DNA of 33,519 nucleotides, from positions 1-33,519 of the forward strand of contig NYWO01000065.1 in the NCBI GenBank assembly GCA_002685075.1. The letters run 5' to 3'. A model generated the notes under the pieces. It had not been told where the DNA came from and searched no databases. It was given only the letters and a program-made list of their open reading frames with translations. The translations under genes and the position numbers were made by a program. This stretch comes from Arcobacter sp. GTDB taxonomy: Bacteria; Campylobacterota; Campylobacteria; Campylobacterales; Arcobacteraceae. Every line of letters begins with the position of its first letter. The first letter of the stretch is position 1. This document shows, in pieces, positions 1,652 through 27,284 of the stretch.

Positions 1652-3493
1652 CTATTTACTCAAATATCCAAGCTTTAATAAAATATTAGTAACTTCTTTA
1701 AATACAGGAACAGCAGATTTAGAAGCATAGTACTGATATCTTTTTTTACCTTTTGAATTTGGATTAAAAACTGTAACTCCAATTGTATAAGAATTCTGGG
1801 CATCATTTACAAATCCAAAAAATGAACTAATATACTCTTTTTGATATTTTCCTTTTCTTGCTATTTGAGCTGTTCCTGTTTTTCCACCAATTTCTAAACC
1901 TTCAATTCTTGCACTTCTTCCTGTTCCTTTATCAACTGTTTTTATTAGAAGTCTCTTTATCTCTTTTGCTGTATCTTTTGAAATAACTCTTTTTATATCA
2001 TTTTTATTGCTTAAATATTTAGTTGTATCATTTTGAATGTGAGAAACTAATTTTGGAGTAGTTACATAGCCTTCATTATTAAAAACTGTATATGCTTTTA
2101 GTACTTGCATAAATGTTGATGTCATTCCTTGTCCATAAGATACTGTTGCTTTAAATACATTATCACTGTTATTACGTTCACCAGCAGAGAATTGTTTTAA
2201 AGATGGAAGTATTCCTACTCTTTCATAAGGTAGCTCAATTCCTGTTTTTTTAGTAAATCCAAAATTATGCATTCCATCTAACATCTCTTTTCCACTTAAT
2301 CTTTGTGCCAATAGTAATGTTCCTATATTTGAAGAGAATATTACAATATCATCTAGTGTTAGATAATGTTTTTTAAATCTATGATCATCATGAATATAGT
2401 GTCTTCCTATTTTATATCTTCCTTTTGGATATAGACCTTTACTGTTGGAATTACCTTTTAAGTTATGCGCTGAAAAAAGTTCATTTTTTCTTATTCTTTT
2501 TTTATCTAAAACTAAAGCTATTGATATAGGTTTTATAATTGATCCTGGTTCAAATGGATACTCAACTGCTTTTACATTAAGAGATGGAATATCTTCTTGA
2601 AATATTCGTTCAGGATTAAATCTATTTGAGGATGCTAAAGATAATACTTTCCCTGTTTTACTTTCCATTATAGAAACTATAATCTCATCTGCTTTTAATT
2701 CCTTCTTATAAATATCTAAAACCATTTCAATATTTTTTTGAAGTCTTAGTGGAATATTTAAATAAATATTTGAACCATCTACTCTTTGTTTTAATATAGA
2801 GTTTTTATCAAAGCTAATATAAGAGTTTACATCTCTTTTCCCTTTTAGCATGCCATCTTCACTATTATTTAAAAGATTATCAAATTTCTTTTCTAAACCC
2901 TTTATTCCTTTTACTTTTGTAGTTCCTTTTTGGGATTCATATTTTCTGATATAACCTATAGTTGGAGTCAATACATCTTCATAAGAGTAAATTCTTTTTT
3001 CACCACTTTCAAGTACATCTAAGGCAGTTAATTTTTTACTTCCATTGATTTTTCTTGAAATAAAAACATCTAATTGTCTAAGTTTATAACTAAGTGCTTT
3101 TAGATTCTTTGCAGTTTTTGAATCTATATTGTAAGATAGTACTACAGTAGATGGTTTTAGTAATGATTTATCTATTTTTTTTAATATTTTTTCACTTGGG
3201 ATATTACTGTATATTGAAAATAGTTTTATAAACAACTCTTTTTTATTTATATCTAAATATCTTGTATCTATTGATGCTTTATATAGTTTTCTTGAAGTTG
3301 TAATTTTAAAGTTATCAGAGCTGTAAATATCTCCTCTAACTGCTAGTTCATTTTTTGTGATATTTAATGATGGAAGTTTTCTTATATTTTTTATTGTTGT
3401 AAAAACGGAATATATTAAGACAAGTAAACAAATTATTAGTGTTAAGGCTAAATAAAAGAATTTTTTTACTCTAGGATCTCTTTCTTGTGTCAT
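1652..3493 (-). CDS. Class B penicillin-binding protein (FtsI/PBP2-like transpeptidase)
   Basis: N-terminal TM segment; SxxK motif in PGSIIKPISIAL; SxN motif in IVIFSSNIGTLLLAQ; KTG motif in GGKTGTAQIA. Confidence 0.9.
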   Translation of the reverse strand: MTQERDPRVKKFFYLALTLIICLLVLIYSVFTTIKNIRKLPSLNITKNELAVRGDIYSSDNFKITTSRKLYKASIDTRYLDINKKELFIKLFSIYSNIPSEKILKKIDKSLLKPSTVVLSYNIDSKTAKNLKALSYKLRQLDVFISRKINGSKKLTALDVLESGEKRIYSYEDVLTPTIGYIRKYESQKGTTKVKGIKGLEKKFDNLLNNSEDGMLKGKRDVNSYISFDKNSILKQRVDGSNIYLNIPLRLQKNIEMVLDIYKKELKADEIIVSIMESKTGKVLSLASSNRFNPERIFQEDIPSLNVKAVEYPFEPGSIIKPISIALVLDKKRIRKNELFSAHNLKGNSNSKGLYPKGRYKIGRHYIHDDHRFKKHYLTLDDIVIFSSNIGTLLLAQRLSGKEMLDGMHNFGFTKKTGIELPYERVGILPSLKQFSAGERNNSDNVFKATVSYGQGMTSTFMQVLKAYTVFNNEGYVTTPKLVSHIQNDTTKYLSNKNDIKRVISKDTAKEIKRLLIKTVDKGTGRSARIEGLEIGGKTGTAQIARKGKYQKEYISSFFGFVNDAQNSYTIGVTVFNPNSKGKKRYQYYASKSAVPVFKEVTNILLKLGYLSK

Positions 3494-3548
3494 TTTTTCC
3501 CTGTATTATGTAGTTAGATTGAATTATTTTAAATTATAGTGTTAGTGA

Positions 3549-3565
3549 TGGACAGGTTATGTCTA
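3549..3565 (-). promoter_or_regulatory. WYL-regulon promoter module upstream of the PBP gene
   Basis: Minus strand TAGACATAACCTGTCCA; -10 TATAAT at 3533..3538, 21 nt after TAGACA. Confidence 0.75.
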
Positions 3566-3607: not shown

Positions 3608-4612
3608 TTATTCTTCCTTAATATTAGATTCTAATTTTTTAATCATATTCATTAAAAGATCACTTATATCTTTAGTGCTAGAGATTAAAACAAGTTTCTC
3701 TAAAGCATCAAGTTTAAAATGATCAACCTCTATAATACTCAAATATTCAAGTGCTTTTTTAATGCCTTCTTTTTTTGCAATACTATAAACTATATTAACA
3801 GATAAATCTAGAGTTTCAGCAGGAAGACTCCCTACTATAGGGTATGTCTCATTGATATTATCTAAAATATCTAATGATTTAAAAGGGAAATATTCAACTA
3901 TTGATATAGCTACTTCTAATATATCTTCGACATATGTATTATGATTTTCTGTAATCTCGTAATCTAGTTCAATAAAGTTTATTAAATCATTGATTTCTTT
4001 TTCATTGTTATCAATTGCATAAATAAATGCTTCGTATCCAAATTTATGTTTTTTATCTAAAAACTTTTTCATATATTTGGAGAACTCTTCATCTGTAGAA
4101 GCAATATGTTTAGATATAGAATACAAATCATCTTTTGATATACCAAAGTCTTTTGATGTAACATATAAATCATTCTTTTCTAAATAGTTTAGTATTTGCT
4201 CATCTTTTACTGTGTCTTTATATTGTATTCTTCGTTCAAGTGTATTGATCATAATATCTTTACAGCCATTATATATAAGTACTTTTAAATTCTTACTACT
4301 TATTTTATAATCACAATCAATACTTATATCAAGCTTTTTTAGATTTGGAAGATTAAATATCTCATTAGGTATATTCTTTACATTTCTTGCAATTATAGAA
4401 AGTTCATTTAAATTAGTTAAATCACCTATCTCTTTAGGTATATCTTTTTTATAAGTGTCTCCAAGAGGTAAAATGAGCTTTTTAATATTTAGGTAGTTTT
4501 CCTCATTAATAGGTAATCCTACCGAACCATCAAAATCTTTATAATAGCTATTTTTAAGGGATTCTAAATTCTTTATAGGATTTTCATCTCTCCATAGTTT
4601 TAATTTATTCAA
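3608..4612 (-). CDS. Leucine-rich repeat protein (334 aa)
   Basis: LRR-like segments IPKEIGDLTNLNELSI, IPNEIFNLPNLKKLDIS; N-terminus overlaps the end of the protease ORF by 8 nt. Confidence 0.75.
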   Translation of the reverse strand: MNKLKLWRDENPIKNLESLKNSYYKDFDGSVGLPINEENYLNIKKLILPLGDTYKKDIPKEIGDLTNLNELSIIARNVKNIPNEIFNLPNLKKLDISIDCDYKISSKNLKVLIYNGCKDIMINTLERRIQYKDTVKDEQILNYLEKNDLYVTSKDFGISKDDLYSISKHIASTDEEFSKYMKKFLDKKHKFGYEAFIYAIDNNEKEINDLINFIELDYEITENHNTYVEDILEVAISIVEYFPFKSLDILDNINETYPIVGSLPAETLDLSVNIVYSIAKKEGIKKALEYLSIIEVDHFKLDALEKLVLISSTKDISDLLMNMIKKLESNIKEE

Positions 4613-6011
4613 CTCTTCTATCGCTTTGAAGTCTATATATCGATTTTAACTCTTTAAAGCTTTCTCTGGCTTCTTTTACATCTAATACAATCTTTTGCTT
4701 TTCTAGTGTTTTTATTACTACGAATTCTGTATCCAAATTATCTATAAGAGTTACGAAGTGTTTGAAGTTTTTAACCTTGATATCATTTACTGTTTCAACT
4801 ACATATGCAGCTGAGCTATATCCTCTATTTATTTTATGAGGGAATATATCTTGCATCCAAATAACTGCTTCATTAAAATCTTCTGTTTGATCTTTATTAT
4901 AAAAAAGCATTTCAATTGAAGTTGTTTTTTTAGATATAGCAAACACATAGTTCTTTGTAAGTGGTGTAAAAGCTAAACCACCAAAGATAAGATATCTAGG
5001 TTCCTTGTTAAACTCTCTTTTTATCAATGGATTGATTCTTTTAATAGTTTGTTTAAAAGATATAATTTTTTTATCTCTCAATACTTTTATATCAAGTGTA
5101 TCACCTATTTGTTTTTGATGAATAATTAGATTACTATATACTCTTCCAAATTGAGATTTGATTGTTCCATCATTTGCAATTGTATTACCATCTATTTCAA
5201 TTATAATATCGTCTTCTTTATAGTTCTCTGCTCCATAAGCAACTTTTGTGACTAAAACTCCATCACCATTTTTTAGACCAAAGTATTTTTTTACACTATC
5301 ATTTCTAATATAGTTTATTGAAGTACCATCATCTCCAAAACCATTTACAACACCATCTTTTATATCTTCTAAAAAAGTGTTTACAATAATAGAAGGAACT
5401 ATATATGAGATATTACTAGCTTTTGTTAAACTCATCATAGCAACACCAATAATCTCTCCATCTTTATTAATTGCAGGACCACCACTATTTCCACTATTAA
5501 TTGCAGCATCCACTTGTACAGCTAATAGATATTCACCACTCCACGCATAGTTTGTATATTCTATTCTTGAAACAACACCTGTAGTAGTTGAAATAGTTTG
5601 ACCACCTACTGGATAACCTAATACTGTAACTTCATCTCTTGGTTTTACATTTGAGTTAAGCTTTAACTCTTTTATACCTTTAAAGAATGTTTTATCTTCA
5701 ACTTCAACAATAGCAAGATCTGCTTGATGAGATATATACTTAACATTGGCAATATACTTTTTAGGATCATTCTCTTTTTGCACTTCTAAAAATCTAGCAC
5801 CACTTACAACATGAGCTGATGTAAGAATCATATTATCTTTTATAATAGAACCTGAACCCTTGTATCTTAATATCTTACTTGTTTGCCAAGGGTATTTATA
5901 GTTTGGGCTAGAGATTGATGCAAATATCTTTACAATAGCTTCATTTGGTAAGCTTGAAGCGTATGTTATTGTGTTTAGTAATAATAGTAATACTAAGATT
6001 AGTTTCTTCAT
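4605..6011 (-). CDS. HtrA/Deg-like trypsin-family serine protease with PDZ-like domain, exported
   Basis: Signal peptide MKKLILVLLLLLNTITYASS; triad contexts LTSAHVV, QADLAIVE, NSGNSGGPAIN; PDZ-like GVLVTKVAYGAENYKEDDIIIEIDGNTI. Confidence 0.9.
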   Translation of the reverse strand: MKKLILVLLLLLNTITYASSLPNEAIVKIFASISSPNYKYPWQTSKILRYKGSGSIIKDNMILTSAHVVSGARFLEVQKENDPKKYIANVKYISHQADLAIVEVEDKTFFKGIKELKLNSNVKPRDEVTVLGYPVGGQTISTTTGVVSRIEYTNYAWSGEYLLAVQVDAAINSGNSGGPAINKDGEIIGVAMMSLTKASNISYIVPSIIVNTFLEDIKDGVVNGFGDDGTSINYIRNDSVKKYFGLKNGDGVLVTKVAYGAENYKEDDIIIEIDGNTIANDGTIKSQFGRVYSNLIIHQKQIGDTLDIKVLRDKKIISFKQTIKRINPLIKREFNKEPRYLIFGGLAFTPLTKNYVFAISKKTTSIEMLFYNKDQTEDFNEAVIWMQDIFPHKINRGYSSAAYVVETVNDIKVKNFKHFVTLIDNLDTEFVVIKTLEKQKIVLDVKEARESFKELKSIYRLQSDRRVE

Positions 6012-6058
6012 TTTATGTATTTCCTTTTAAAATTTAATGTCTTATTACAATAAATATA

Positions 6059-7639
6059 TCATTCATTTGACAACTTAACACATCCATTTTCTCTTCTATC
6101 TTCTTCATCAACCCAATAAGCAGTTTCTTCAAAAGTAAAGGGTAAATTTTTAAGTATATTAGAACTGTCATCAAATAATTTAGAATGTGTAATGTTTAAA
6201 GTGTCCATATTCAATTTTTTAATGTCATCTATATTTGAATTAAAAAGATTATCATCAAAAGTTAATTGTTTTAAATTTGGTAATTTAAAAATATCCTTAT
6301 CCAAATTTTCAATAAGATTGTTTTCAAACTCTAGTTCTTCTAACTCTTTTAATTTTTGTAAATCTTTTGGAAAACTCTTTACATAGTTATTTGAAAAAGC
6401 AAGTCTTTTTAATTTATTTAAATTAACAATATCTTTTGGAATACTTTTTAATCTATTCCCATGTATACAAAAAGAGCTTAAGTTTTTTAATTTTGTTAAT
6501 TCATTTGGTATTTTATCTATATTATTACAACATAAACATAAACTATTTAATATTTTTAAATTCGATATATTAGATGGTATAGTTTTAATTTTGTTAGCTT
6601 TTAAAGATAAAAATATCAAATTCTTTTTATTTAAAATTACTTCAGGAATTTCAGGAATTTCATTTGATTCTAATATAATCATACATAAAGACCTAAGATT
6701 TTCAAACTCTTTTGGTACTTCTTTTATATTATTAAAAGCAGCATCTAAAACTACTAATTTTTCTAATAAAATAAGCTCTTTGGGTAACTCTTTTATACCT
6801 TTATTTGATATATTTAGTTCTACTAAATTAGTTAATTTTTCTAAATCTCTTGGAAAAGTTTCTTCATCTAAGTTATATTTATCAGCCCATTGAAATAAAC
6901 TTGATATGGAATCTTCTTTTAGTTCCTGTCTTTTAGTTATTTTTAAAACATCTTTTTGAATACAAAATTTCATTAAGCCATTTGACTCTTTATTAGGAGG
7001 ATAAAAACTGTATTTCATATCAGGATCTTGCATATTTCCTTCAGTTAAAAACTTAATAGTATTATCTGCTGTATCATATAATTCATCAGGAATATGCTCT
7101 ATATTTGTTGTTTCTACTTTTATTAGTCTGTCTTCAACAAAAGTTGCTTTTGTAAAACTATTTAAATCTTCAAATTCAAAGTGAATAACATTATCGCCGT
7201 CTGTATAATTTTTTTCTGCTTGAACCTTTTCTATAGAATAAAAAAGTAGTAAATTTAAATCATTTGCTATATCTGTACTTGGTGCTTTTGAAAGAATATT
7301 TAATATAGAAGTCTTTTTAACAACCTTATCATCACTTAGTAATTTAGCTACAGTTTTAATAAAGAAATTAATAAATTTAACATCAAACTTTTTATTTGAT
7401 TCTTTAATAATAAATTTTTCTAAACTATAAAGAGCATTGTATATATATTCATGAACTGTAAAAGTAAAATCACCTTCTTTAAGATTATCTTTTACATATT
7501 TATATTTTTCAAAAGAAAGAAGCATGTAGTTTAAAACAGCTTGTTCTGTATCTCTTAGTTTCTTTATATCTACAGTTGATGTTGCTTTAATTTTACTAAT
7601 TGAAATTTCTATACTTTTATTTTCTTTACTTTCTTTCAT
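6059..7639 (-). CDS. Leucine-rich repeat protein (526 aa) with ~250 aa non-LRR N-terminal region
   Basis: Repeated LxxLxxLxxLxLxxNxIxxIPxx units through the C-terminal half. Confidence 0.85.
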   Translation of the reverse strand: MKESKENKSIEISISKIKATSTVDIKKLRDTEQAVLNYMLLSFEKYKYVKDNLKEGDFTFTVHEYIYNALYSLEKFIIKESNKKFDVKFINFFIKTVAKLLSDDKVVKKTSILNILSKAPSTDIANDLNLLLFYSIEKVQAEKNYTDGDNVIHFEFEDLNSFTKATFVEDRLIKVETTNIEHIPDELYDTADNTIKFLTEGNMQDPDMKYSFYPPNKESNGLMKFCIQKDVLKITKRQELKEDSISSLFQWADKYNLDEETFPRDLEKLTNLVELNISNKGIKELPKELILLEKLVVLDAAFNNIKEVPKEFENLRSLCMIILESNEIPEIPEVILNKKNLIFLSLKANKIKTIPSNISNLKILNSLCLCCNNIDKIPNELTKLKNLSSFCIHGNRLKSIPKDIVNLNKLKRLAFSNNYVKSFPKDLQKLKELEELEFENNLIENLDKDIFKLPNLKQLTFDDNLFNSNIDDIKKLNMDTLNITHSKLFDDSSNILKNLPFTFEETAYWVDEEDRRENGCVKLSNE

Positions 7640-7702
7640 TTTACTTCCTATATTTAATTTGTGTTATTTTTTATACTGATGATTAATAGTATTTACTTAT
7701 CT

Positions 7703-8134
7703 TTAAAAAGGTATATCATCTTCATCAATATCTACTTCAGGTATTTTCTCTGAAGCTTTTGCTTGATATGGTTCTGGTTTATGTTCAACTGCAGATGGTC
7801 TATTTTCATCTTTTGAGCCTAACATTTTCATAGTTTCAACTCTTAAAGAGTGTCTATTTCTATTTGTTCCATCTTGAGCAATCCATTGGTCAAAGATTAA
7901 TCTTCCTTCTAAAAGTACTTTTGAGCCTTTATGTAAGTACTGGTTAGCAACTTCAGCAGATCTTCCAAAAATTGTAAAATCTAAAAAACAAACCTCTTCT
8001 TTTTGTTCTGCATTTGATGATTTATATTTAAAAGTTGTTGCAATTGCAGATTTGGCTACTGCTGTACCATTTTTAATAAACTTTAATTCTATATCTCTTG
8101 TTAAGTTACCAACAAATATTACTTTGTTATACAT
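7703..8134 (-). CDS. ssb: Single-stranded DNA-binding protein
   Basis: MYNKVIFVGNLTRDIELKFIKNGTAVAKSAIATTFKYK...LLEGRLIFDQW; acidic C-terminal tip DIDEDDIPF. Confidence 0.93.
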   Translation of the reverse strand: MYNKVIFVGNLTRDIELKFIKNGTAVAKSAIATTFKYKSSNAEQKEEVCFLDFTIFGRSAEVANQYLHKGSKVLLEGRLIFDQWIAQDGTNRNRHSLRVETMKMLGSKDENRPSAVEHKPEPYQAKASEKIPEVDIDEDDIPF

Positions 8135-8177
8135 AGTTTTCCTTTTTGATTTTATAAAAAGAGTATAGAAAAAAATA

Positions 8178-8194
8178 AAGACATATTTTGTCTA
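8178..8194 (-). promoter_or_regulatory. WYL-regulon promoter module upstream of ssb operon
   Basis: Minus strand TAGACAAAATATGTCTT; -10 TATACT at 8162..8167 with 21-nt spacing. Overlaps the stop codon of the upstream LRR ORF. Confidence 0.85.
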
Positions 8195-8767
8195 GTCGTT
8201 ATATAAATCTTCAATATCTATATAACACTTCATTAAAAGCTTTTGTCCAACATCATTGTTTAAGATACTTCGCTGTGATAAAAGAACTAAATCTAGTTTA
8301 GGAAGCTTTAGTATCTCTTTTGGTAATTCTTTTAAATCTTCATTCCAAACAATTTTTAATACTTCAAGGTTTGTTAGTTTTTCAATATTTCTTGATAAAG
8401 AAGTAAGATTATTACCTCCACTTATTACATCACCTAGAATTAAAACTTTTAGATTTTTTAGATTATATATTTCTTCAGGTAATTCTTTTAGAGAATTTCC
8501 TGCTAAGTTCAATTCTTCTAAATTTTCAAGACAGCCTATTTCTTGAGGTATTTTATTTAAATTTAAAAAGCTTAAATCTAACACTTTTAAAAAATCTAAT
8601 TGTCTAGTATTCAATGATTTATAATCTCTTTCCGTCCATCTTTTGTAAATAAATGTACTATTGCTTTCCTCTGCAACATATTTAATTTCATCTTCTAAAA
8701 TATTAAAAAATGAAGTTAACATTAGATGTTTTATACTTTTGTGTTGATACTCACCTTCTTTTTCCAT
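8192..8767 (-). CDS. Leucine-rich repeat protein (191 aa)
   Basis: LNKIPQEIGCLENLEELNLAGNSLKELPEEIYNLKNLKVLILG. Confidence 0.8.
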   Translation of the reverse strand: MEKEGEYQHKSIKHLMLTSFFNILEDEIKYVAEESNSTFIYKRWTERDYKSLNTRQLDFLKVLDLSFLNLNKIPQEIGCLENLEELNLAGNSLKELPEEIYNLKNLKVLILGDVISGGNNLTSLSRNIEKLTNLEVLKIVWNEDLKELPKEILKLPKLDLVLLSQRSILNNDVGQKLLMKCYIDIEDLYND

Positions 8768-8771
8768 CTTT

Positions 8772-9231
8772 TTAAATTCCTTTTAAAAACTTCTTCATTT
8801 GTTTTTCGTCTTTTGCAATAGCAAAGTGCCCTGCACTATGTACAAAAACCATTTCATTGTTTTGTTTAAAAGGTTTTGCATTTAATTAAAGATGAAAATT
8901 CAAATGGTTTTGCTTTTTGAACACCTGTATCATTTTTATCTATTAAATCAATTAGTTTAGATATTTTTGGATACTTATCATTTAAATCTAAATAATCCCA
9001 AATAAGACCTGCAGAACTTTTCCCACCTTTATACTGATGGTGATCAAAGTATTTAACACCATCAAACTTCTTTCCTATATCAATAACTAAATCACAGTTT
9101 GAGAAGTCTGTTGTATTATGATCAACTCTATTTACAATAATATTTTCATTTGTAAATACTTTTAGAAGTGCTACTGCTGCTACTTCATCTGCATGGAAAG
9201 TCTTATTATGTGTAATAATTAATTTACTCAT
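8772..9231 (-). pseudogene. MYG1-like (DHH-type) hydrolase remnant with probable internal deletion and frameshift
   Basis: ORF 8866..9231 has HNKTFHADEVAAVALL, VIDIG and DHHQYKGGKSSAGLIWDYL, then ends at ...FEFSSLIKCKTF*. The adjacent frame continues as NAKPFKQNNEMVFVHSAGHFAIAKDEKQMKKFLKGI*. Confidence 0.65.
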
Positions 9232-9374: not shown

Positions 9375-9418
9375 ACTTTATCTCTTTATATTTATTTAAA
9401 AGATTTTACAAAAAGACT

Positions 9419-9435
9419 AGGACATATTTTGTCTA
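9419..9435 (-). promoter_or_regulatory. WYL-regulon promoter module upstream of the 45-aa ORF / MYG1 remnant / LRR unit
   Basis: Minus strand TAGACAAAATATGTCCT; -10 TAAAAT at 9403..9408 with 21-nt spacing. Confidence 0.8.
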
Positions 9436-10786: not shown

Positions 10787-12430
10787 CTAATTATTAAATT
10801 TATTTTGAAGGTTTCCTAGTAAATTAGTTCTATCATACACCCTTAGTTTTGGTGGGTTTTGAATAACTTCAAGAATATTATTAAGTTTTAAAAACCATTT
10901 AGGCATTTCTTTTTGTTCAAATTTTATGTTATCGTTTGCATGTAAGTATTTATTTCGATTATAAATTAATGTGTTAAGATTAGAATTTATAATATTTCTT
11001 GCTTTAGTTTCATTACCATCATCAAGTTTTTTTATAATCATTTGTAGCTGATTGTAAACTGAGCTTTTCTTACACTCCTCTCCATCCCAAAAAATTTGTT
11101 TTTTTTCATCAATAAATATAGTAAGAATAGCTTCTAAAAATCGTGCCATTGAAAGAGCTGCATAAGCTAGTCTATTGTTATTACTAGAATCTAATATATC
11201 AAAAATAAAAAAGTTTTCATTTTGCAATATATTTAAATATGATTGATTTTTTTCTGTATTTAATTTATATTGAGCAAAAATATTCTTTTGTAATATTAAA
11301 GAATTATTTTGTTGAATATTCCAAATTTCTTTTAAATATTTTTTTTCTAATCCATCATCTACTAAGTCCACAAGTTTATTTATATTCTCAACTGTATTAA
11401 TACTTACATCATCTGGGTGCTCTTTTTTGATATATCCTAATATTTTCTTTTCATAAAGTTTTTCTAAGATAGTACTTTTACTTGTAGCTGTAAGCATAAT
11501 AACTTGAATACCAGCATTTATTTCATGAATCTTTTTAAGTATCTTTATACCTGTATAGCTATCAATGTCATTTGTTTCATGATCTGATTGTAAAAACCTT
11601 AAATCTAAAATAACAACATCTGAATTTTCATTTGCTATTCTTTTATAAGTTAAGTCACTTAAGGAATTTCTATCTTTAAATGTTGTTATAAATGGTTTAA
11701 ACTCTATTTCACGATTTGATTGAAATATAACTTTTAAAATATCACTCCATCCCTTATCCCACTCATCATCTATAAGAAGTACTTTCCCTTTTTTTGAAGG
11801 TTTTTTTATCTCTATATTTTCATTATCATATTGTTTTTGTTTTACTTTTAGGTATTTAAAATAAAGTAGATTTTCTATTTTTTCTTTATTTGTTTGTGTA
11901 GCTTCACTTTTAACATCTAAAATATCACTCCATTTGTAAATACTCCACTCATTTGCAATACTATGATGAGATAGATAATCTTTAGGTTGTTCTACTCTAA
12001 TTTTGTCTAAAAACTCAGATTGATACTCTTCTTGAGTAAGATTTTTAAAATCTTTATTTTTTATTTTATTATATTCACTTTTTGTATTTTGTATCAAAAA
12101 TGTATTTTTAGTAAAAAGTATATTTGCACTAGCATCAAGTTTGTTTAGTATATAACCATCAAGGTCACTTATAACAACTATTGGTAAATATTTTAGGTTC
12201 TCTGTAAGTCTAATATGATAGGCCACTCTTAAACCTAAAAGTTCAAGGTAGTTTAGAGATAAATTATCTTTGATATATATTACATCTGGTTTTATCTCTA
12301 AAAGATCTGGTAGTATCTCTTGTGAAATGTATCTATCTATATCACTTTTATCATAATTATCAAAATAAATTTCATCTTCAAAATCCTCAAAAAAACTAAT
12401 ATTGTCTTTATGGATTATTACATTAGTCAT
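10787..12430 (-). CDS. Tandem-receiver response regulator-like protein with C-terminal HEPN-like region
   Basis: Second receiver has VLLIDDEWD, VVILDLRFL, IQVIMLTATS and GYIKKE. The N-terminal segment is degenerate receiver-like. C-terminal NTLIYNRNKYLHANDN contains an Rx4H motif. Confidence 0.7.
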   Translation of the reverse strand: MTNVIIHKDNISFFEDFEDEIYFDNYDKSDIDRYISQEILPDLLEIKPDVIYIKDNLSLNYLELLGLRVAYHIRLTENLKYLPIVVISDLDGYILNKLDASANILFTKNTFLIQNTKSEYNKIKNKDFKNLTQEEYQSEFLDKIRVEQPKDYLSHHSIANEWSIYKWSDILDVKSEATQTNKEKIENLLYFKYLKVKQKQYDNENIEIKKPSKKGKVLLIDDEWDKGWSDILKVIFQSNREIEFKPFITTFKDRNSLSDLTYKRIANENSDVVILDLRFLQSDHETNDIDSYTGIKILKKIHEINAGIQVIMLTATSKSTILEKLYEKKILGYIKKEHPDDVSINTVENINKLVDLVDDGLEKKYLKEIWNIQQNNSLILQKNIFAQYKLNTEKNQSYLNILQNENFFIFDILDSSNNNRLAYAALSMARFLEAILTIFIDEKKQIFWDGEECKKSSVYNQLQMIIKKLDDGNETKARNIINSNLNTLIYNRNKYLHANDNIKFEQKEMPKWFLKLNNILEVIQNPPKLRVYDRTNLLGNLQNKFNN

Positions 12431-13097
12431 TTGTTGTCTCTTTTATAAATTGGTATATGCTATCTTTTAGCAGAAATATCTCATCCATACTTGTTCGATT
12501 ATTTTCTATTACTACTTCATGCAGTTTCATATCTAATATCTGAAGTTTTTCAATATCACAATCAGTTACAAACTCTGGATAATATATTTTATCATCATCG
12601 TTTTTTTCTAGTGAAAAGTTTATTTTTTCTAAAATATTTAATACAATATTTAGTTTCCACTTTCTCCCATAACATAACATTAAGATATTCTTATCTTCTG
12701 TTTTTGTGGCTTCTAAGAAAAGTTCTAAATTTTTACTATAAAAAGTTTTAGAATTTAATTCCATCACTTTATACTCTTCTTCATTGTAATATGTAGCACT
12801 GATACCACCTGAGAAAAATATTAATGGAGTATTTGTATCTTTACAGTGTTTTTTTAGTTTTTCTAAGGTTTGAGTATTTTTATCCCCATAAGCCGATTTA
12901 TGTGAGATGATAATATCATAAGGAGTTAAATCAAATGTATCATTTTGGAGTTGATAAAATACTTCATCATATGCTTCACCTGTGCAGTTAAAAAGTATAT
13001 CACTGTAACTATCAAGCTCTATATTTGTCTCTTCCATAAAAAGTTGTTGTCTTTTTATACGATCTTCTATTAAAAGTATTTTCATATTTAGTTCCAT
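12423..13097 (-). CDS. Receiver-like (pseudo-receiver) protein
   Basis: N-terminal MKILLIEDRIKRQQLF; phospho-acceptor region reads YDIIISHKSAYGD with no obvious Asp at the acceptor position. 8-nt overlap with the downstream ORF. Confidence 0.6.
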   Translation of the reverse strand: MELNMKILLIEDRIKRQQLFMEETNIELDSYSDILFNCTGEAYDEVFYQLQNDTFDLTPYDIIISHKSAYGDKNTQTLEKLKKHCKDTNTPLIFFSGGISATYYNEEEYKVMELNSKTFYSKNLELFLEATKTEDKNILMLCYGRKWKLNIVLNILEKINFSLEKNDDDKIYYPEFVTDCDIEKLQILDMKLHEVVIENNRTSMDEIFLLKDSIYQFIKETTND

Positions 13098-13820: not shown

Positions 13821-16526
13821 TTACTTATAAAACCTCAAAACATGCGTAAAACCTTTTGGTTTGTTCTCTAGTTTTTCAATATCTTTTACATTGTTACTTT
13901 TTAAATAGTTGATTCTAAAGTTCTCATTCTCAAAGCTTCCTTCAACACTCCAATCACAAAGGTTTGTAAGATTATTCTTAATACCTGCAAAGTCACCTCT
14001 TTCTACCTTTTTGAATAGATCTTTACTATTTAGAGTAGATAGTGAGTCTATATGTATTATTTTTAGTTCAAAATATTCACTTTCTGGCATAGTTAATTTT
14101 ACTAATATATTTTTTAATTCTTTTCGTTTTTTTATAGGATCAAATATCTTATTTAATGCAATTGTAATCTTCTCTACATCTATATAAAATTCACCTTCAA
14201 TCTTAGATTTAGTTAATATCAAATCTTCAGGTAGATGTTTACCTATAGTGTTAAATATCTTTTCAAGAGTTTTGAAGTCACTTCTTACCTGTATCTCTTG
14301 TTTAAATAAATTTATGATGTCCTCAAACTTTCTAATTTTTGTACCATCACTTAAAGTTATAGCTTTTTTGAGTCTAAAATCAAAAGGATTTTTTCCACTA
14401 TCACAATACTCATTTAGTTCATCCAAACTTGACCATCCGATATTTATATCACCTTTACTACACCAGCTATAGTTTTCATCTGGATTAGTTTCTAATAAAA
14501 ATGTATATACTTTCTTATAAAGATTAGGAGACAACTCTTTAAGTTCATCTTTCATAGTTGCAAATTGAGATTTAACAGCACTCATATACCCATCAAAGTT
14601 TTTATACTCACTATTATTTAAACTGCCAAAATCCCAAGTGTGTGTAGTGTATTTTATAGGTTTATCTATAGTGAAGTTTGTGAGAAGTTTTACTAATTTT
14701 TGTGGGGTGTGGTTTGTAGTGCTTTTAATAAGATTTTTTATATCATCATTAGTAGCTAGATCAAAAGCAGTCATCTCTGACTTTACATTTATATCTGCAC
14801 CATTGTCTATCAAAATTTTAACAAGCCTATCTTCACCTTTTAAAGCATAGTGCATAAGTGGTGTCATACCCATATTGTTTTTGTGGTTTATATCTGCACC
14901 ATTTTGAAGAAGATAAATTAATATTTTTTCTGATGAATACTTAGGAAGTTCATGAGTATCAGTTATCATTTCACCATTTTCATTTTCATATTGATCAATA
15001 CTAAACTTATCTTGATAAGCATCTATTATATGAAATAAAATGTTATTTCCATTTTTATCTTTATAATGTATGTCTGCTCCATTTTCTATTAATAAGTTTA
15101 TAATTTTTAATTTTTTACGTCCCAATTTTTCAGATGAACATACTTCCATTAATAAATTTATTTGATTTTTATCAGAATTATAATTTATTTGATTCACACT
15201 AGAACCATTGTTAATTAACAATTTAATTAAATCAAGATTTTTAGTTGTAAATATAGATTTTTTTAATGGATTATATACATTCATATCAGCATTCATTTTG
15301 TAAAGATCGTTAATCAACTCAATAATAAGGTTTGTATTTTCCTTACTATAAAATAACTTAGCTTTTTTTGCAAAATCAATACAATCACTTACTGTTGCAT
15401 CATAATCTATGTTAATAGGTTTTGTTGATTCTTTATATTTTAATTCATTTGCATGTTTCATTACTTTTATATCACAAACAGAAAGAAGTTTTATTGAGCT
15501 ACAAATCTCTTTAATCTCTTTTTCTGGATCATTAAATATTGGTATGTTATGTCCGTCACCAATATCTTGGTAAATTTCTTTTTTTAATAATGGCGATATG
15601 TAATAACCTTTTGCATAAGGAATATTATTGTCTTTATGTTTTTGAATTACAAGTTTAATTAAAGAGTAATCTTGTAATTCAATAGCAACTTGTAAAAATC
15701 CTCTATCATCATTATCTAATCGTGATTCTTTATGCAACATTCTATGAAATAAATCATATTCTATATCAATATTTGCACCATTTTCAATTAAATATTTGCA
15801 GGTTTCAATATCTTTATTAGATGCTGCATAGAATAAAGACGTTGCATGATATATTTTCCCATCAAAAAACTCTACTTTTTCATATTCATTTATATCTGCT
15901 CCACATTCTAAAAATAATTTGATAAGTACTTTGCTTCTCATCAAAACAGCATATAAAAAAGTATTATTATCATTTTTGCATCTACTCTTTATATCTATTC
16001 CTTTTTTTAGTAGATATTTAATTGTATCGTATATCTTTTTACCTGGATCATATTCAGCATCATCTAAATCATTCCAATTGGCTCTGAGTTTAGGAGTTTC
16101 ATTATAAAAGTTTTTCATAACTTCAGCTAAATTGAGATTTTTTATATCACTATATTTACTTATTATAAAATCTACTAATTCAACATTATTAAGTAAAACG
16201 GCAATCATTAAAATACTTAAACCATTTTTTGATACTGACAACATATCCAAATCTTCATCATCTAAAAGATAGCTCATTAGCTCCATATTTACAGATTTTT
16301 TATTTTTATATAATTCATACAAATATTCAGCAAGATTAAAAGATTTGATTTCACCATAATTAGCATGAAAATTTTCTCTTAGTGTATCAAACCTTTCAGC
16401 TGCATTTTGTGTTGATACATACTCTTTTACTTGATCTTCTCTTTCTTCTTCTACATATATAGCAACTTTTTCATACTCACTAGGTAGTTTTGGTGCATTT
16501 TCAAATCTATTTTTAGTATTTTTCAT
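13821..16526 (-). CDS. Ankyrin-repeat protein (901 aa) with novel-looking C-terminal region
   Basis: Repeats such as MTPLMHYALKGEDRLVKILIDNGADINVKS and NNILFHIID...LLQNGADINHKN; the last ~300 aa are not ankyrin-like. Confidence 0.85.
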   Translation of the reverse strand: MKNTKNRFENAPKLPSEYEKVAIYVEEEREDQVKEYVSTQNAAERFDTLRENFHANYGEIKSFNLAEYLYELYKNKKSVNMELMSYLLDDEDLDMLSVSKNGLSILMIAVLLNNVELVDFIISKYSDIKNLNLAEVMKNFYNETPKLRANWNDLDDAEYDPGKKIYDTIKYLLKKGIDIKSRCKNDNNTFLYAVLMRSKVLIKLFLECGADINEYEKVEFFDGKIYHATSLFYAASNKDIETCKYLIENGANIDIEYDLFHRMLHKESRLDNDDRGFLQVAIELQDYSLIKLVIQKHKDNNIPYAKGYYISPLLKKEIYQDIGDGHNIPIFNDPEKEIKEICSSIKLLSVCDIKVMKHANELKYKESTKPINIDYDATVSDCIDFAKKAKLFYSKENTNLIIELINDLYKMNADMNVYNPLKKSIFTTKNLDLIKLLINNGSSVNQINYNSDKNQINLLMEVCSSEKLGRKKLKIINLLIENGADIHYKDKNGNNILFHIIDAYQDKFSIDQYENENGEMITDTHELPKYSSEKILIYLLQNGADINHKNNMGMTPLMHYALKGEDRLVKILIDNGADINVKSEMTAFDLATNDDIKNLIKSTTNHTPQKLVKLLTNFTIDKPIKYTTHTWDFGSLNNSEYKNFDGYMSAVKSQFATMKDELKELSPNLYKKVYTFLLETNPDENYSWCSKGDINIGWSSLDELNEYCDSGKNPFDFRLKKAITLSDGTKIRKFEDIINLFKQEIQVRSDFKTLEKIFNTIGKHLPEDLILTKSKIEGEFYIDVEKITIALNKIFDPIKKRKELKNILVKLTMPESEYFELKIIHIDSLSTLNSKDLFKKVERGDFAGIKNNLTNLCDWSVEGSFENENFRINYLKSNNVKDIEKLENKPKGFTHVLRFYK

Positions 16527-16605
16527 TTTCTATATTTCCTCGGTATATTCATTATCTTATCAAAATCTCTCTTTGACACTTATAGCAATATTATAAACTA
16601 AACTT

Positions 16606-16622
16606 TAGACATATATTGTCTA
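16606..16622 (-). promoter_or_regulatory. WYL-regulon promoter module upstream of the ankyrin gene
   Basis: Minus strand perfect TAGACAATATATGTCTA; -10 TATAAT at 16590..16595 with 21-nt spacing. Confidence 0.9.
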
Positions 16623-17096
16623 TTAAGTATTTAGTCTTTTCAATATCTGATACGCTTCATTTATATCTTTTGGTAAATCCTTACTTGCCAAGGTATCATA
16701 ATGGTATTGTCTAATTAATGTTTTATAATTTTTCTTTATAGTTAAAAGACTTGCATCGATACTACATTCAAGAACTTCATAATATTTTGTGAAACTACTA
16801 TACATAGCTGCTTCCTTATAATTATTCTCTTTTTCATAATATGTATTTTCATTACTTTCTATGAATGTCAATTTAGCATATTCCCTTTCACCACTAAAAT
16901 ATTGTTCTTTTATAACGGTACATACTAATCCTTCATATAAAGTCACATGAATCCAAGATGAATTTTTAGGTATTGAAATATAAAATCTTCTTCCATTAAT
17001 AGATACAACCATACTTAAACGATAAAGTTTATTTATTGTCATTGTATATTTTTTATTGTATGAAATTGGTAAATCTCTAAAGTTTGTTGTTTTCAC
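16623..17096 (-). CDS. Protein with C-terminal divergent J-domain (HYD in place of HPD)
   Basis: FTKYYEVLECSIDASLLTIKKNYKTLIRQYHYDTLASKDLPKDINEAYQILKRL. Confidence 0.75.
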   Translation of the reverse strand: MKTTNFRDLPISYNKKYTMTINKLYRLSMVVSINGRRFYISIPKNSSWIHVTLYEGLVCTVIKEQYFSGEREYAKLTFIESNENTYYEKENNYKEAAMYSSFTKYYEVLECSIDASLLTIKKNYKTLIRQYHYDTLASKDLPKDINEAYQILKRLNT

Positions 17097-17145
17097 ATTA
17101 ATTCCTTATTCAAGTTGTTTTATAGATTAATTATAGTAGATTGTA

Positions 17146-17162
17146 TAGACATATATTGTCTA
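17146..17162 (-). promoter_or_regulatory. WYL-regulon promoter module upstream of the J-domain gene
   Basis: Minus strand perfect TAGACAATATATGTCTA; -10 TATAAT at 17130..17135 with 21-nt spacing. Confidence 0.9.
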
Positions 17163-17173
17163 TAAAAACAATT

Positions 17174-18589
17174 CTAAAAATCCAAATTCAACTTATCTAA
17201 TTCAAAGTCAATAGAATCTAAAACAGAAGCCTGATGCTCTTCAAGTATTTTATTTGCATTATTTGGCAATAATACTTTTATATCTTTAGAAGCTCTTGTA
17301 ATTGCAACATACAAAAGTCTATACATCATATCTTTATCATTCATCTTTTGTATTTCTGTCAAATCAATATAAACAGTTTCATATGTGCTACCTTGTAGTT
17401 TATGAATAGTAGATGCGTAGATATATTTTACATCTATAAACATATTTTTTATACTATAAAACAATCTCCATTTTGTACTTCTTTGCACATAATTCTTTTC
17501 AAATTTTGCACTTTTTGCAAGTTTATTTAAAACCATTTCAAATCGACCTTTTGAATTTGGATCTATTACTTTAAAAGGTCTTCCACTTAAATCTTTACAA
17601 TTCCAATATTCAACTTCTAATTTCTTATGAAAACATTTAATAGTTAAATCTATTTTTGCAATATCGCTATTTTGGTGTACGACTATTTCATCAATTACAT
17701 TTGCTTGTTGAAATATCACTTGATCACCTTTTAGAAATGTTTCAGGATTTAATACATTGTTTTCTTTCCAATATCTATTTCTAATAACCTTATTGTGTTG
17801 TTCAACACTATTATTAGTAAACCCAGCTATTACTTTATCTTTTTTAGCCCAAGTATCAGGCGTACAAAAATCTTCATAAAATTCATTTTTAGAATCAAAA
17901 AATTGAACTTTATTTTTAAATGACTCATCATTGAAGAACTCTTTTATAGAGAGATAGTTTTTGGATTTGATTATATTTCTAGCTTTTGTTGCTATATTTA
18001 TTATATAGCTATCTTGAGCTTGTCTAACAATTTTATTTAGTCTATATTTATGAGCTATTTCAAATACTTTATTATTTTGATTATCAACAGGAAGTAATTG
18101 ATTCTCATCTCCAACAAATAATACAGATTTAATTCTAGATTTTTCAATTGCTTTAACGATATATTCATAAATATCAGAACTAACCATAGAACTTTCATCA
18201 ACTATTAGAATATCTGTTTTTGTATCATCTTTTTCTTTTGATTTTATAGGCTCAAATTTTTGAATACCTTTATCAAAATCAGTTACAAGCTTAATATTTA
18301 AAAAGGATTGTATTGTTTTTGTATCTACATTTTCAACTTCATGGGCTAAAAGATTTACTCTTAATACTTGAAGTGCTTTATGTGTAGGCGCTGTTATTGT
18401 AATATGAAATTGCTCTTTTAACTTTTTTACTAGTTTTGTAGTTAGATAAGTTTTACCAGTACCCGCTGCACCACTTAGTGAAACTTCATTTTGCCATACC
18501 ATATCTGCTTTTATAATATCTTCTAACTTTTTTGATATTTCTTCAAAAGCTTGTTTTTGAGTTAATGAGTTTGTAATTGTAGTGTTCAT
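17174..18589 (-). CDS. SF1 helicase, Dda/RecD-like
   Basis: Walker A GAAGTGKTYLTTKL; LIVDESSMVSSDIYE; FVGDENQLLPV; YASTIHKLQGSTYETVYIDL; MYRLLYVAITRASKDIKVL. Confidence 0.9.
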   Translation of the reverse strand: MNTTITNSLTQKQAFEEISKKLEDIIKADMVWQNEVSLSGAAGTGKTYLTTKLVKKLKEQFHITITAPTHKALQVLRVNLLAHEVENVDTKTIQSFLNIKLVTDFDKGIQKFEPIKSKEKDDTKTDILIVDESSMVSSDIYEYIVKAIEKSRIKSVLFVGDENQLLPVDNQNNKVFEIAHKYRLNKIVRQAQDSYIINIATKARNIIKSKNYLSIKEFFNDESFKNKVQFFDSKNEFYEDFCTPDTWAKKDKVIAGFTNNSVEQHNKVIRNRYWKENNVLNPETFLKGDQVIFQQANVIDEIVVHQNSDIAKIDLTIKCFHKKLEVEYWNCKDLSGRPFKVIDPNSKGRFEMVLNKLAKSAKFEKNYVQRSTKWRLFYSIKNMFIDVKYIYASTIHKLQGSTYETVYIDLTEIQKMNDKDMMYRLLYVAITRASKDIKVLLPNNANKILEEHQASVLDSIDFELDKLNLDF

Positions 18590-18633
18590 AGTATAATCCT
18601 TTTAAATTGTTAAAAGAATTATGCTATATTAAG

Positions 18634-18650
18634 TGGTCATATATTGTCTA
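18634..18650 (-). promoter_or_regulatory. WYL-regulon promoter module upstream of the helicase
   Basis: Minus strand TAGACAATATATGACCA; -10 CATAAT at 18618..18623 with 21-nt spacing. Confidence 0.8.
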
Positions 18651-22510: not shown

Positions 22511-23185
22511 TTAAAATAACTGTAGCTGAACAGGTTCTATTTTATAAATAGTTTTTATAAAATCTTCTTTTGATTTCATTGCTATATCTATTAAATTTAG
22601 CCTTACAAGTGAAACCAATATTGCACAAGTTCTAGCTTGACAATTTATTGACCTTTTGGGATTAAATTCAATATCAGAAAAGTTATCGAATTTTATTAGT
22701 TCATCAATAATATCTGGATAATTTTTATATAAAGTATTTATATATAGCCAATCATAAAAAGAAGTTTTAGGTTCATTTTCCCAAAATATACCTTCATAAC
22801 AAAAACCTATTATATTCCCTGAATTTCTTAATCTTTCATCTTTTTTCGCTTTTATACTTTCAGTTAAATAAATATCTTTATATTGAACATCTCCTTCAAA
22901 TATTTTACTACCTTGAAATGCACATTCAAGAGATATTTGATGATCTATTTCAAAATCTACCATAAGATTAAATGCACTTAATTTCCAGCCCAGTTCATTA
23001 TCTGATTTAGTTGATACTTCTAGAATATTGTTGTATCCTATTTTTTTTGCACTTTCATGTAATGAAATAATACTTTTTGATTTTTGAGATACTGAAAAAC
23101 CATTGTAGAACTTAAACTCTATTCCAGTTTCTTTAAATAATTCTCTTTTATTGTTACTTACTGAAAATATTGGTCTATTTGCCAT
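22511..23185 (-). CDS. NADAR-type antitoxin associated with DarT1
   Basis: ELGWKLSAFNLMVDFEIDHQISLECAFQGSKIFEGDVQYKDIYLTESIKAKKDERL; starts 11 nt inside the DarT ORF. Confidence 0.75.
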   Translation of the reverse strand: MANRPIFSVSNNKRELFKETGIEFKFYNGFSVSQKSKSIISLHESAKKIGYNNILEVSTKSDNELGWKLSAFNLMVDFEIDHQISLECAFQGSKIFEGDVQYKDIYLTESIKAKKDERLRNSGNIIGFCYEGIFWENEPKTSFYDWLYINTLYKNYPDIIDELIKFDNFSDIEFNPKRSINCQARTCAILVSLVRLNLIDIAMKSKEDFIKTIYKIEPVQLQLF

Positions 23186-23684
23186 TTGTAATCCCTTTTA
23201 TTTTATTTATATTAATTGAACTATAAGCCATTACTTCTGCTTTTCTTGCTTCAACTCTTGTCCAAAAATCTTTTTCATTCACTAAAGTATTAAAATCAAT
23301 ATATTCAAATAAATCCTCAATCGTAAATATATTTGAGTTAGTTTGATTTGCAACCTTGTCACAGAACAATGTATTTTCATCAAACAATATAGATATATCT
23401 AGTTCTATCCATACAGGAGAGATAATACTTCCTCTTTTTTTAGCAGAGTGATACATGGGATGATCTTTAATAAATGATAAATGAACAAACTTATCAAGTC
23501 CCCTTTTTTTATCAAGAGTATGACTTAAACTTTCTGCACCATATCGAGAAACATCAATTTGATTTGATTCAATATTTAACAATGATTGAATGCCATTTTG
23601 TTCTATAGATTTTAAATTTGCTCTATCTGTAAAGTGATAAATTGATTCAATTCCATAACTTGATAATGTTTCTCTAATACTCAT
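23175..23684 (-). CDS. darT: DarT-like (DUF4433) DNA ADP-ribosyltransferase toxin
   Basis: ESIYHFTDRANLKSIEQNGIQSLL; FVHLSFIKDHPMYHSAKKRG; WTRVEARKAEVMAYSSININKIKGI. Confidence 0.85.
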   Translation of the reverse strand: MSIRETLSSYGIESIYHFTDRANLKSIEQNGIQSLLNIESNQIDVSRYGAESLSHTLDKKRGLDKFVHLSFIKDHPMYHSAKKRGSIISPVWIELDISILFDENTLFCDKVANQTNSNIFTIEDLFEYIDFNTLVNEKDFWTRVEARKAEVMAYSSININKIKGITNGK

Positions 23685-23731
23685 TTTTACATCCTCTTAT
23701 TTGTTTGATAAGAGAATTATATAAATTCAGA

Positions 23732-23748
23732 TAGACATATATTGTCTA
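23732..23748 (-). promoter_or_regulatory. WYL-regulon promoter module upstream of darT
   Basis: Minus strand perfect TAGACAATATATGTCTA; -10 TATAAT at 23716..23721 with 21-nt spacing. Confidence 0.9.
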
Positions 23749-25345: not shown

Positions 25346-25702
25346 CTATTTATTAACAATAAAGATTTTGATATCTAACTTCTTAGCTAAAGTATTTAAT
25401 CTTCTAACATATCTTTCATCTTTTGAACCAACGATTAAAGCAATAGCAGGTTTCTTATTTGTCATTTGAGCATAGTACAATGATTGCCCTACACCCTCTG
25501 CCCATTTTTCTGCCCAATCAACTTCTATAGCATACTCTGAACTAAGGCAATCAACTCTAGTCTTATCTTTGAGAGTATATTCCATCAATCCATCTAGTTT
25601 ACTACATAGCTTCTCTTGATAATATCTTTCATTTTTTTTGACACTTGAACAAGCATTGAAAAAAACCGATAATAATATTATATATATAAAACTTTTTAAC
25701 AT
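25346..25702 (-). CDS. Putative lipoprotein with PD-(D/E)xK-like motif
   Basis: Lipobox-like LSVFFNAC; RVDCLSSEYAIEVDWAEKWAEGVGQSLYYAQMTNKKPAIALIV. Confidence 0.65.
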   Translation of the reverse strand: MLKSFIYIILLSVFFNACSSVKKNERYYQEKLCSKLDGLMEYTLKDKTRVDCLSSEYAIEVDWAEKWAEGVGQSLYYAQMTNKKPAIALIVGSKDERYVRRLNTLAKKLDIKIFIVNK

Positions 25703-25731
25703 TTAATATTCCTATATTATTTATTTTTATT

Positions 25732-26100
25732 TTAGACTCTTTTTTCATATTTTTTTAAAATCAAATCACTGGTACTAAAAAGCTCACCTTTTTTCATAAT
25801 GATCTTTTCATTTTGTTTCTCGTTTGAGATATTGCTTAATTCAACTTCTTTTACATCAATTTTTGTTTTTCTTAATATATAAATATTAATAGCAATAATA
25901 ATCATAATAAGAAACCATTTAAAAAAGAGTAATGTACCAAGCATATCTTTATCTTTTACTTTCATAACTTGAAACAAATCATCATAAACTATTCCAATAA
26001 ATCCAATTAAAAATATAGAGCTTAAGATCAATAGAATATGCTTTTTAAATTTTTTCCAAATTACATAATATGCAGTAGTTTTAAATAATAAATTAAACAT
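25732..26100 (-). CDS. Small membrane protein, unknown function
   Basis: Two hydrophobic helices: ILLILSSIFLIGFIGIVY and LLFFKWFLIMIIIAINIYIL. Confidence 0.6.
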   Translation of the reverse strand: MFNLLFKTTAYYVIWKKFKKHILLILSSIFLIGFIGIVYDDLFQVMKVKDKDMLGTLLFFKWFLIMIIIAINIYILRKTKIDVKEVELSNISNEKQNEKIIMKKGELFSTSDLILKKYEKRV

Positions 26101-26108
26101 TTAATCTC

Positions 26109-26384
26109 CTATAATCCAAATAACATATCAAGACCTATAAATGCTAATAAACCTTGAGAAGTTTTCTTTGCGTAATCTTCTTTTATATCTTTTGAAAGAT
26201 CAGAAATCATTGCTTCATAATCATCTTGTTCTATTTGCTCAACTTCAAGATTCTTTTCTTTTATTTTTGCATTTACTTTTTCAATAGCTTTTTCTCTAAT
26301 ATGCTCCTCATATTTATTAGAAATAGTTTCAGTTCCATCTTTTATAGATTTTATAGCATCATCAAGTATTGTTTCTGGACTCAT
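26109..26384 (-). CDS. Small protein of unknown function (91 aa)
   Basis: Compact ORF in a head-to-tail cluster; hydrophobic C-terminus GLLAFIGLDMLFGL. Confidence 0.55.
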   Translation of the reverse strand: MSPETILDDAIKSIKDGTETISNKYEEHIREKAIEKVNAKIKEKNLEVEQIEQDDYEAMISDLSKDIKEDYAKKTSQGLLAFIGLDMLFGL

Positions 26385-26665
26385 CTACCTTCTCCTTTAT
26401 GTGTAAGCATTTTAATTCTTTCATCCATTTCTAGCTCTTTTTGTTCTTTTTTATATGATTGATACTCATCTACAATTACTTCATTTATCTCTTTTTTAAT
26501 CTCCCATGCAGCACCTAAAACAGTTGGGGTATTTTTAGCAATAAACTTTCCAGTAATCCAAGTTGCGGATGATAGAAGTTTTGTTATGGTCCAAACTTTT
26601 CCAGCAGTTGATTTTTTTGATGTACCATCTATAATCTTTTCTAATTCTTTTGTATTCATAATCAT
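26381..26665 (-). CDS. Small protein of unknown function (94 aa)
   Basis: 4-nt overlap with the next ORF; AAGGAATG ribosome-binding context upstream. Confidence 0.55.
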   Translation of the reverse strand: MIMNTKELEKIIDGTSKKSTAGKVWTITKLLSSATWITGKFIAKNTPTVLGAAWEIKKEINEVIVDEYQSYKKEQKELEMDERIKMLTHKGEGR

Positions 26666-26670
26666 TCCTT

Positions 26671-27140: not shown

Positions 27141-27185
27141 TTTATGTCTCCTATTTTTTATATATTAAAATTATAGAGAGTATCT

Positions 27186-27202
27186 TGGTCATATATTGTC
27201 TA
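27186..27202 (-). promoter_or_regulatory. WYL-regulon promoter module upstream of the small-gene cluster
   Basis: Minus strand TAGACAATATATGACCA; -10 TATAAT at 27170..27175 with 21-nt spacing. Confidence 0.85.
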
Positions 27203-27267: not shown

Positions 27268-27284
27268 TAGACAATATATGTCTA
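27268..27284 (+). promoter_or_regulatory. WYL-regulon promoter module upstream of the WYL regulator
   Basis: Plus strand perfect TAGACAATATATGTCTA; -10 TACAAT at 27295..27300 with 21-nt spacing. Confidence 0.9.

Follow-up and report, generated by a model that had tools for sequence, protein, structure and literature searches.

What brings an SSB, two LRR proteins, and a Deg-type protease together behind a single promoter in a marine relative of Arcobacter? A preliminary description of this locus had proposed that the LRR proteins and the protease form a sensing and effector unit. The window, that is, the whole stretch of DNA analysed, is one entire contig (C133, 33.5 kb) of a fragmented assembly (161 contigs, 2.68 Mb, 86.5% complete). 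The operon comprises the following features:

8162-8194, minus strand: promoter module of the operon (operator TAGACAAAATATGTCTT at 8178-8194, 10-bp spacer, -10 TATACT)
7703-8134, minus strand: ssb, 143 aa
6059-7639, minus strand: LRR protein with DnaB N-terminal domain, 526 aa
4605-6011, minus strand: protease, 468 aa
3608-4612, minus strand: second LRR protein, 334 aa, TTG start, 8-nt overlap with the protease gene

All four open reading frames lie on the minus strand in the tight arrangement originally described, including the 8-nt overlap between the protease and 334-aa genes. The intergenic gaps amount to 63, 47, and -8 nt, no terminator-like sites were found between the four genes on this strand, and a consensus scan for sigma-70 -35 elements or promoters within the operon was uninformative (46 promoter-like sites vs. 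58.5 in shuffles). Judging from the spacing, the four genes probably share a common mRNA. Searches against Pfam support the SSB, Trypsin_2 plus PDZ_3, and LRR assignments of the encoded proteins. Comparison across genomes gave a divided answer: gene pairs and membership in the regulon recur, whereas the full cassette in its exact four-gene order is found in no other genome searched and is unique to contig C133. Because of this uniqueness among the searched genomes, a joint function of exactly these four genes has no support from conservation. The operon is instead one branch of an island-wide regulon.

The promoter module and the island regulon

The module consists of the palindrome TAGACAAWATATGTCTA, with the core GAC-N7-GTC, placed exactly 10 bp ahead of TATAAT, and is found before about ten operons of the island, including the gene of its own WYL-family regulator. 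The single module noted earlier in front of the operon is real and far above chance. Within the window, the operator palindrome has 8 matches with at most three mismatches, against a mean of 0.79 in shuffles (0 of 100 shuffles reach 8), and 9 of the 15 matches with at most two mismatches in the 2.68-Mb genome fall within the 33.5-kb contig C133. The full module including the -10 (TAGACAAWATATGTCTA, 10 bp, TATAAT; at most three mismatches) occurs nine times in the window. Apart from the operon's own module, the regulator, the modules with their genes, and the island ftsI are arranged as follows:

27330-28337, plus strand: WYL-WCX transcription regulator, DriD-like, presumed regulator of all modules (Pfam, family profile, module co-occurrence)
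27268-27300, plus strand: the WYL gene's own module (autoregulation)
27170-27202, minus strand: divergent module of the small-gene operon 25346-27140 (module search)
3533-3565, minus strand: weaker module before the FtsI-like gene (TAGACATAACCTGTCCA, 10 bp, TATAAT)
1652-3493, minus strand: island FtsI, division transpeptidase (Pfam)
9403-9435, minus strand: module before the MYG1-like fragment 8866-9231 and the LRR gene 8192-8767 (module search)
16590-16622, minus strand: module of the ankyrin/HisKin-conflict gene 13821-16526 and later genes (module search)
17130-17162, minus strand: module of the DnaJ-domain gene 16623-17096 (module search)
18618-18650, minus strand: module of the RecD-like helicase gene 17174-18589 (module search)
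23716-23748, minus strand: module of the DarT1/NADAR pair 23175-23684 and 22511-23185 (module search)
28358-28390, plus strand: orphan module before an IS-transposase remnant (module search)

The notion of a regulon promoter ahead of a closely spaced operon is thus supported, and the parts belong to a defence-like island. What the preliminary description overlooked is the regulon that the module defines, including the WYL-family regulator at 27330-28337 and the adjoining FtsI-like gene. Families standing behind modules in several genomes comprise WYL, ankyrin/HisKin-conflict, iREC, RecD-like helicase, LRR, protease, MYG1-like, SSB, and DarT1/NADAR proteins as well as small genes. The iREC/response-regulator gene (10787-13097) and the ankyrin/HisKin-conflict gene (13821-16526) rank with the WYL regulator's most frequent neighbours, recurring in seven genomes or loci. 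The MYG1-like reading frame at 8866-9231 encodes 121 aa, compared with 207-260 aa in relatives under the same module, and is probably truncated; the transposase remnant behind the orphan module (28358-28870) is of the IS type and broken. Elsewhere, an FtsZ/tubulin-like GTPase domain protein is encoded in a module-led operon (L106:6089-6868 in G024), with a homologue likewise placed in G005 (L109:2-481), and TOTE conflict system genes directly follow the WYL regulator in G001 (L107:9731-14724).

The link between module and regulator was surveyed in 104 Arcobacteraceae genomes, counted as WYL-positive when they contain a gene closely related to the WYL gene at 27330. The nine WYL-positive genomes carry 2-15 modules each (G091, 15; G074, 12; G005, 11; G000, 9; G024, 6; G050, 5; G070, 3; G001 and G094, 2 each), whereas the 95 WYL-negative genomes have a mean of 0.25 and a maximum of 2, close to the 0.20 of a reversed-pattern control (Mann-Whitney p = 5e-10 for positive against negative genomes). 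Among these 104 genomes, the module is abundant only where the WYL protein occurs.

The left end of the window carries a partial tRNA-Glu-like 3′ end (271-316; 85% identity over 46 nt to the tRNA-Glu at 28933-29008) and, beside it, an integrase-domain reading frame (813-1469). Together, the tRNA-Glu copies, which differ from one another, and the integrase resemble the boundaries of an integrated island, about 28.6 kb long. No empty integration site was found, and the leuB of relatives is not followed by a tRNA. An island of this kind, with SSB, a helicase, and an integrase close by, might employ the operon for its own replication, repair, or transfer. The integrase and the tRNA copy fit such a housekeeping role, as do the frequent occurrence of SSB paralogs on conjugative elements and a locus (L218) in which a DnaB-NTD-LRR gene adjoins an integrase in the absence of modules. 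However, the window yielded no gene for a relaxase, a replication initiator, or transfer, and toxins and conflict domains abound in the regulon, so that housekeeping for the mobile element appears improbable as the purpose of the operon.

The regulator and the geometry of its operators

The regulator encoded at 27330-28337 matches Pfam WYL and WCX above the cutoff. At the threshold used, its N-terminus has no Pfam HTH match; a conserved SEKTIRRDLDVIKEYF segment in the alignment resembles a winged helix-turn-helix. While the single WYL sequence finds no direct match in the PDB, a family profile built from this sequence together with seven relatives (41-70% identity to it) retrieves just five sequences with E < 0.001, all over the WYL-WCX part (E 2e-5 to 1e-4). 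These five may be read as DriD structures, because 8TP8 is so named in PMC11804915 and the others align identically. The match is a remote one (E about 1e-5) that covers the WYL-WCX part only.

DriD, a DNA-damage activator of Caulobacter, recognizes the consensus ATACGAC-N7-GTCGTAT at sites that lie across the -35 and keep a constant distance to the -10 (PMC12340889), and its targets include dnaG, recJ, and the division inhibitor didA (PMC12340889, PMC4211646). The island system resembles it in the WYL-WCX architecture, in a GAC-N7-GTC element that covers the -35 region with constant spacing to the -10, and in a multi-promoter regulon with replication/repair and division targets. It differs in that the regulator is encoded on a mobile island, whose own conflict genes it controls, and in that the outer operator bases are TA..TA rather than ATAC..GTAT; the sequence similarity is remote. 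The mycobacterial WYL activators PafBC and SiwR also act from a site at about -26 to -35 that is fixed relative to the -10, SiwR and PafBC being placed at about -26 (PMC10693628, PMC11804915). PafBC, however, is a heterodimer that acts on core genome genes, and its structure is not matched by the island profile.

The position of the operator was analysed in a set chosen blind to the -10 (at most three mismatches to the 17-mer, with a gene start 20-120 nt downstream). The resulting 74 operators come from 32 loci that were partly retrieved through module searches and are hence not an independent sample. At an offset of 10, a match to TATAAT of at least 4/6 is present in all 74 operators and of at least 5/6 in 67; a match of at least 5/6 occurs in four operators at offset 8 and in none at offsets 9, 11, or 12. 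In loci retrieved via the WYL protein alone, 19 near-group sites have a downstream -10, which lies at the 10-bp position in 17 of them. Within the palindrome, G3, A4, and C5 are conserved in 97, 91, and 100% of the 74 operators and G13, T14, and C15 in 98, 72, and 95%. Spacing this strict is characteristic of an activator that cooperates with RNA polymerase.

The same genes and the same inducer could also operate with the opposite sign. WYL regulators of defence systems, namely BrxR (PMC9122601) and CapW (PMC9122588), are repressors, and a protein of this type might silence all modules until a nucleic-acid signal releases it upon infection. Like the island regulator, these repressors of BREX, CBASS, and defence islands reside inside the defence island and bind a palindromic operator. 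Their geometry is that of repressors, with one or two operators that usually serve one system, in contrast to the roughly ten operons of the island with operators upstream of the -10.

Campylobacterota promoters often lack a -35 region, which is dispensable in many of them, and an operator in its place could also repress. Moreover, a distant WYL group (30-36% identity) has its operator downstream of the regulator's own -10. Yet a repressor has no need of the exact 10-bp spacing found in the 74 operators of the 32 loci, whereas an activator in contact with RNA polymerase would be expected to show it; the nearest solved relative of the regulator is DriD, an activator; and BrxR operators sit downstream of the -10 (PMC9122601). 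Taken together, repression with release upon infection seems an unlikely mode of control.

The comparison of WYL groups bears on the same point. Relatives of at least 46% identity also occur in Sulfurospirillum, Sulfurimonas, and Sulfurovum genomes and, where they have an upstream module, the operator stays 10 bp before the -10. In the group to which the window's protein belongs, the operator lies upstream of the -10; a blocking position, over or downstream of the -10, is found only in the distant group, where it lies 4-8 nt downstream of the regulator gene's own -10 in many loci. In L151, L152, L154-L156, L158, L161, L166, and L176, an operator follows a -10, in many cases that of the regulator itself, and other promoters of L151, L152, L156, and L169 retain the activator spacing. 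This arrangement suggests autorepression combined with target activation in the distant group, and hence possible dual regulators in Campylobacterota; for the window's group it suggests auto-activation. Because DriD structures are the profile's only PDB matches and the operator shares the DriD core, the island regulator is best read as a DriD-like activator, probably triggered by ssDNA; both its sign and its ligand are what we infer. Among plasmids and phages, only distant copies of the regulator were found, close ones having been searched for.

The proteins of the operon

In the 526-aa protein, the preliminary description had missed the N-terminal domain of a DnaB helicase. The protein is composed of this domain (about residues 25-122), a mixed alpha/beta region (about 123-250), LRRs (about 260-475), and a conserved C-terminal tail. 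Pfam DnaB_N matches residues 30-122 with an E-value of 4.6e-7, above the cutoff, and LRRs are also matched; DnaB_N is present in all three full-length relatives tested, one of which (L043) falls slightly under the curated cutoff. A profile of the N-terminal region retrieves DnaB-sized proteins across the phylum (E about 1e-7). Since a fold search with the whole model returns only LRR proteins, the N-terminal part was folded on its own. The AlphaFold2 model of residues 1-235 has a pTM of 0.76, and DnaB N-terminal domains account for nearly all of its best 40 PDB matches in Foldseek (best probability 1.00; target-normalised TM 0.71 to the H. pylori domain; modest E-values, 3e-3 at best).

Pfam, profile, and predicted fold thus agree in describing the protein as a fusion of a DnaB-helicase N-terminal domain to LRRs. 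It resembles DnaB in the fold and sequence of its N-terminal 100 or so residues but is devoid of the RecA-like motor, which neither Pfam nor the fold search detected. Because only LRRs follow the collar domain, the protein is not a helicase. The reverse combination exists in G074, where a DnaB motor (DnaB_C, E 1.5e-50) is fused to LRRs directly behind a module (L115:356-1975). In G374, a 483-aa relative of the 526-aa protein stands behind a perfect module and adjoins a RecD-like helicase. A phage origin of the DnaB-NTD-LRR protein was considered and rejected, there being no match in 50,697 phage records. Neither for this architecture nor for the fusion of the DnaB motor to LRRs was a description found in the literature searched, and no literature on LRRs with DnaB in an anti-phage context was found.

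The island SSB has an OB fold (Pfam SSB, E 4e-28) and the C-terminus DIDEDDIPF with the acidic tip DDIPF. By sequence, it is a second copy of the host-type SSB: contig C102 carries a host-type ssb with 79% identity to it over 112 aa, while the island ssb of G024 reaches only 62%. Because the C102 copy is closer than the G024 island gene, recruitment from the host is suggested. An ssb gene is also found behind modules in G024 and near modules in G050. The island FtsI, too, is a second copy of a host gene, judging from relatives, which have one host FtsI each (about 65% identical); G091 and G050, both island genomes, possess an extra copy. In the window's own assembly, a search did not recover the host copy, probably owing to assembly incompleteness.

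The island holds copies or fragments of typical phage targets, i.e., SSB, FtsI, and LRR fusions of both the N- and the C-terminal domain of DnaB, as well as the FtsZ/tubulin-like GTPase in relatives. This inventory lends itself to an interpretation in which SSB, DnaB-NTD-LRR, and FtsI copies act as integrated decoys that bait phage proteins directed at attacking or hijacking the corresponding host proteins, the LRRs serving as the sensor as in plant immune receptors that contain integrated decoy domains. Such decoys would be compatible with control by the regulon and would explain both the copying of host replication and division proteins and their fusion to LRRs. Nevertheless, no effector domain was found in the LRR proteins, and the second copies of SSB and FtsI might serve as nothing more than checkpoint or backup proteins; the decoy interpretation is consequently unlikely.

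The protease features the catalytic triad H67-D98-S176 and a PDZ domain (Trypsin_2 with PDZ_3 in Pfam), and its best PDB match is plant Deg2/Deg9 (5ilb, E 2e-73). The triad is intact in all relatives, and the signal-peptide-like N-terminus that had been reported for it is conserved among them (judged by eye). Unlike these plant counterparts, the island protease is bacterial, predicted to be exported, and located behind regulon modules. Its sequence places it with the Deg9/Deg2-type serine proteases; being a predicted exported protein, it would not share a compartment with the putatively cytosolic LRR proteins.

Among the 104 genomes, the protease has a scattered distribution (9 genomes) and is over-represented in those with the WYL gene (Fisher p 0.003). 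It is under the regulon in five genomes, namely the window's own, G005, Poseidonibacter ostreae G094, and the Sulfurospirillum-type loci L124 and L129, following the WYL gene in the latter three, and occurs without the WYL regulator in five Arcobacteraceae genomes. One conserved partner of the protease across all genomes was sought and rejected, as its neighbours differ. The 334-aa protein consists of a short LRR part (about residues 48-102; Pfam LRR_14, 7e-6, below cutoff) and a C-terminal domain.

The proposed pair of LRR sensor and protease effector can be judged on this basis. LRR-protease adjacency does recur: G094 has overlapping WYL, protease, and LRR genes, with an LRR protein of the 526-aa family directly next to the protease, and in G062 a stand-alone gene right behind the protease is 40% identical to the C-terminal half (155-330) of the 334-aa protein. 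Against a direct partnership, a conserved signal peptide is present on the protease and none was seen on the LRR proteins, so that different compartments are expected, and relatives of the protease have other neighbours or stand alone. A direct sensor and effector pair is therefore very improbable.

A proposed replication and division checkpoint under a possible island alarm

The operon is best read as a branch of the regulon that touches both replication, through SSB and the DnaB collar-LRR protein, and the envelope, through the protease. We consider it fairly probable that it constitutes an output branch of a mobile stress/defence regulon of Campylobacterota, governed by the island's DriD-like WYL-WCX activator and functioning as a replication-and-division checkpoint. 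The regulon itself is well supported; within it, the operon may act as a checkpoint of this kind or provide phage decoys. A checkpoint function would parallel that of DriD with its targets dnaG, recJ, and a division inhibitor.

The domains suggest the following course of events. ssDNA from damaged or phage-invaded replication forks would activate the WYL regulator, which in turn would bring RNA polymerase to promoters devoid of a good -35. The extra SSB would then coat and titrate ssDNA and may also switch the signal off. As a helicase collar without a motor, the DnaB-NTD-LRR protein could compete for or trap primase, the helicase loader, or a phage equivalent, and trapping of these replisome partners would stop or guard replication. 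The exported Deg-type protease and the neighbouring second FtsI would act on the envelope and division side. Such a checkpoint might gain time for the co-induced conflict systems, i.e., DarT1/NADAR, HisKin/iREC, and the RecD-like helicase. That the island as a whole is a mobile alarm for DNA damage or phage, in which a DriD-type WYL protein, activated by ssDNA, turns on conflict systems along with copies and LRR-fused fragments of host replication and division proteins and in which the DnaB-LRR proteins are decoy receptors or replication brakes, is a tentative idea that for now must be called doubtful.

The case bears on how defence islands come to be switched on. The defence-associated WYL regulators described so far, BrxR and CapW, are repressors, whereas the ssDNA-sensing WYL activators DriD and PafBC run damage responses of the core genome. 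If the present reading is true, this case joins both, with an island that possesses its own ssDNA alarm and a single promoter grammar for about ten operons. This grammar is simple enough for pattern searches, by which members of the regulon, and hence candidate defence genes, may be found across Campylobacterota.
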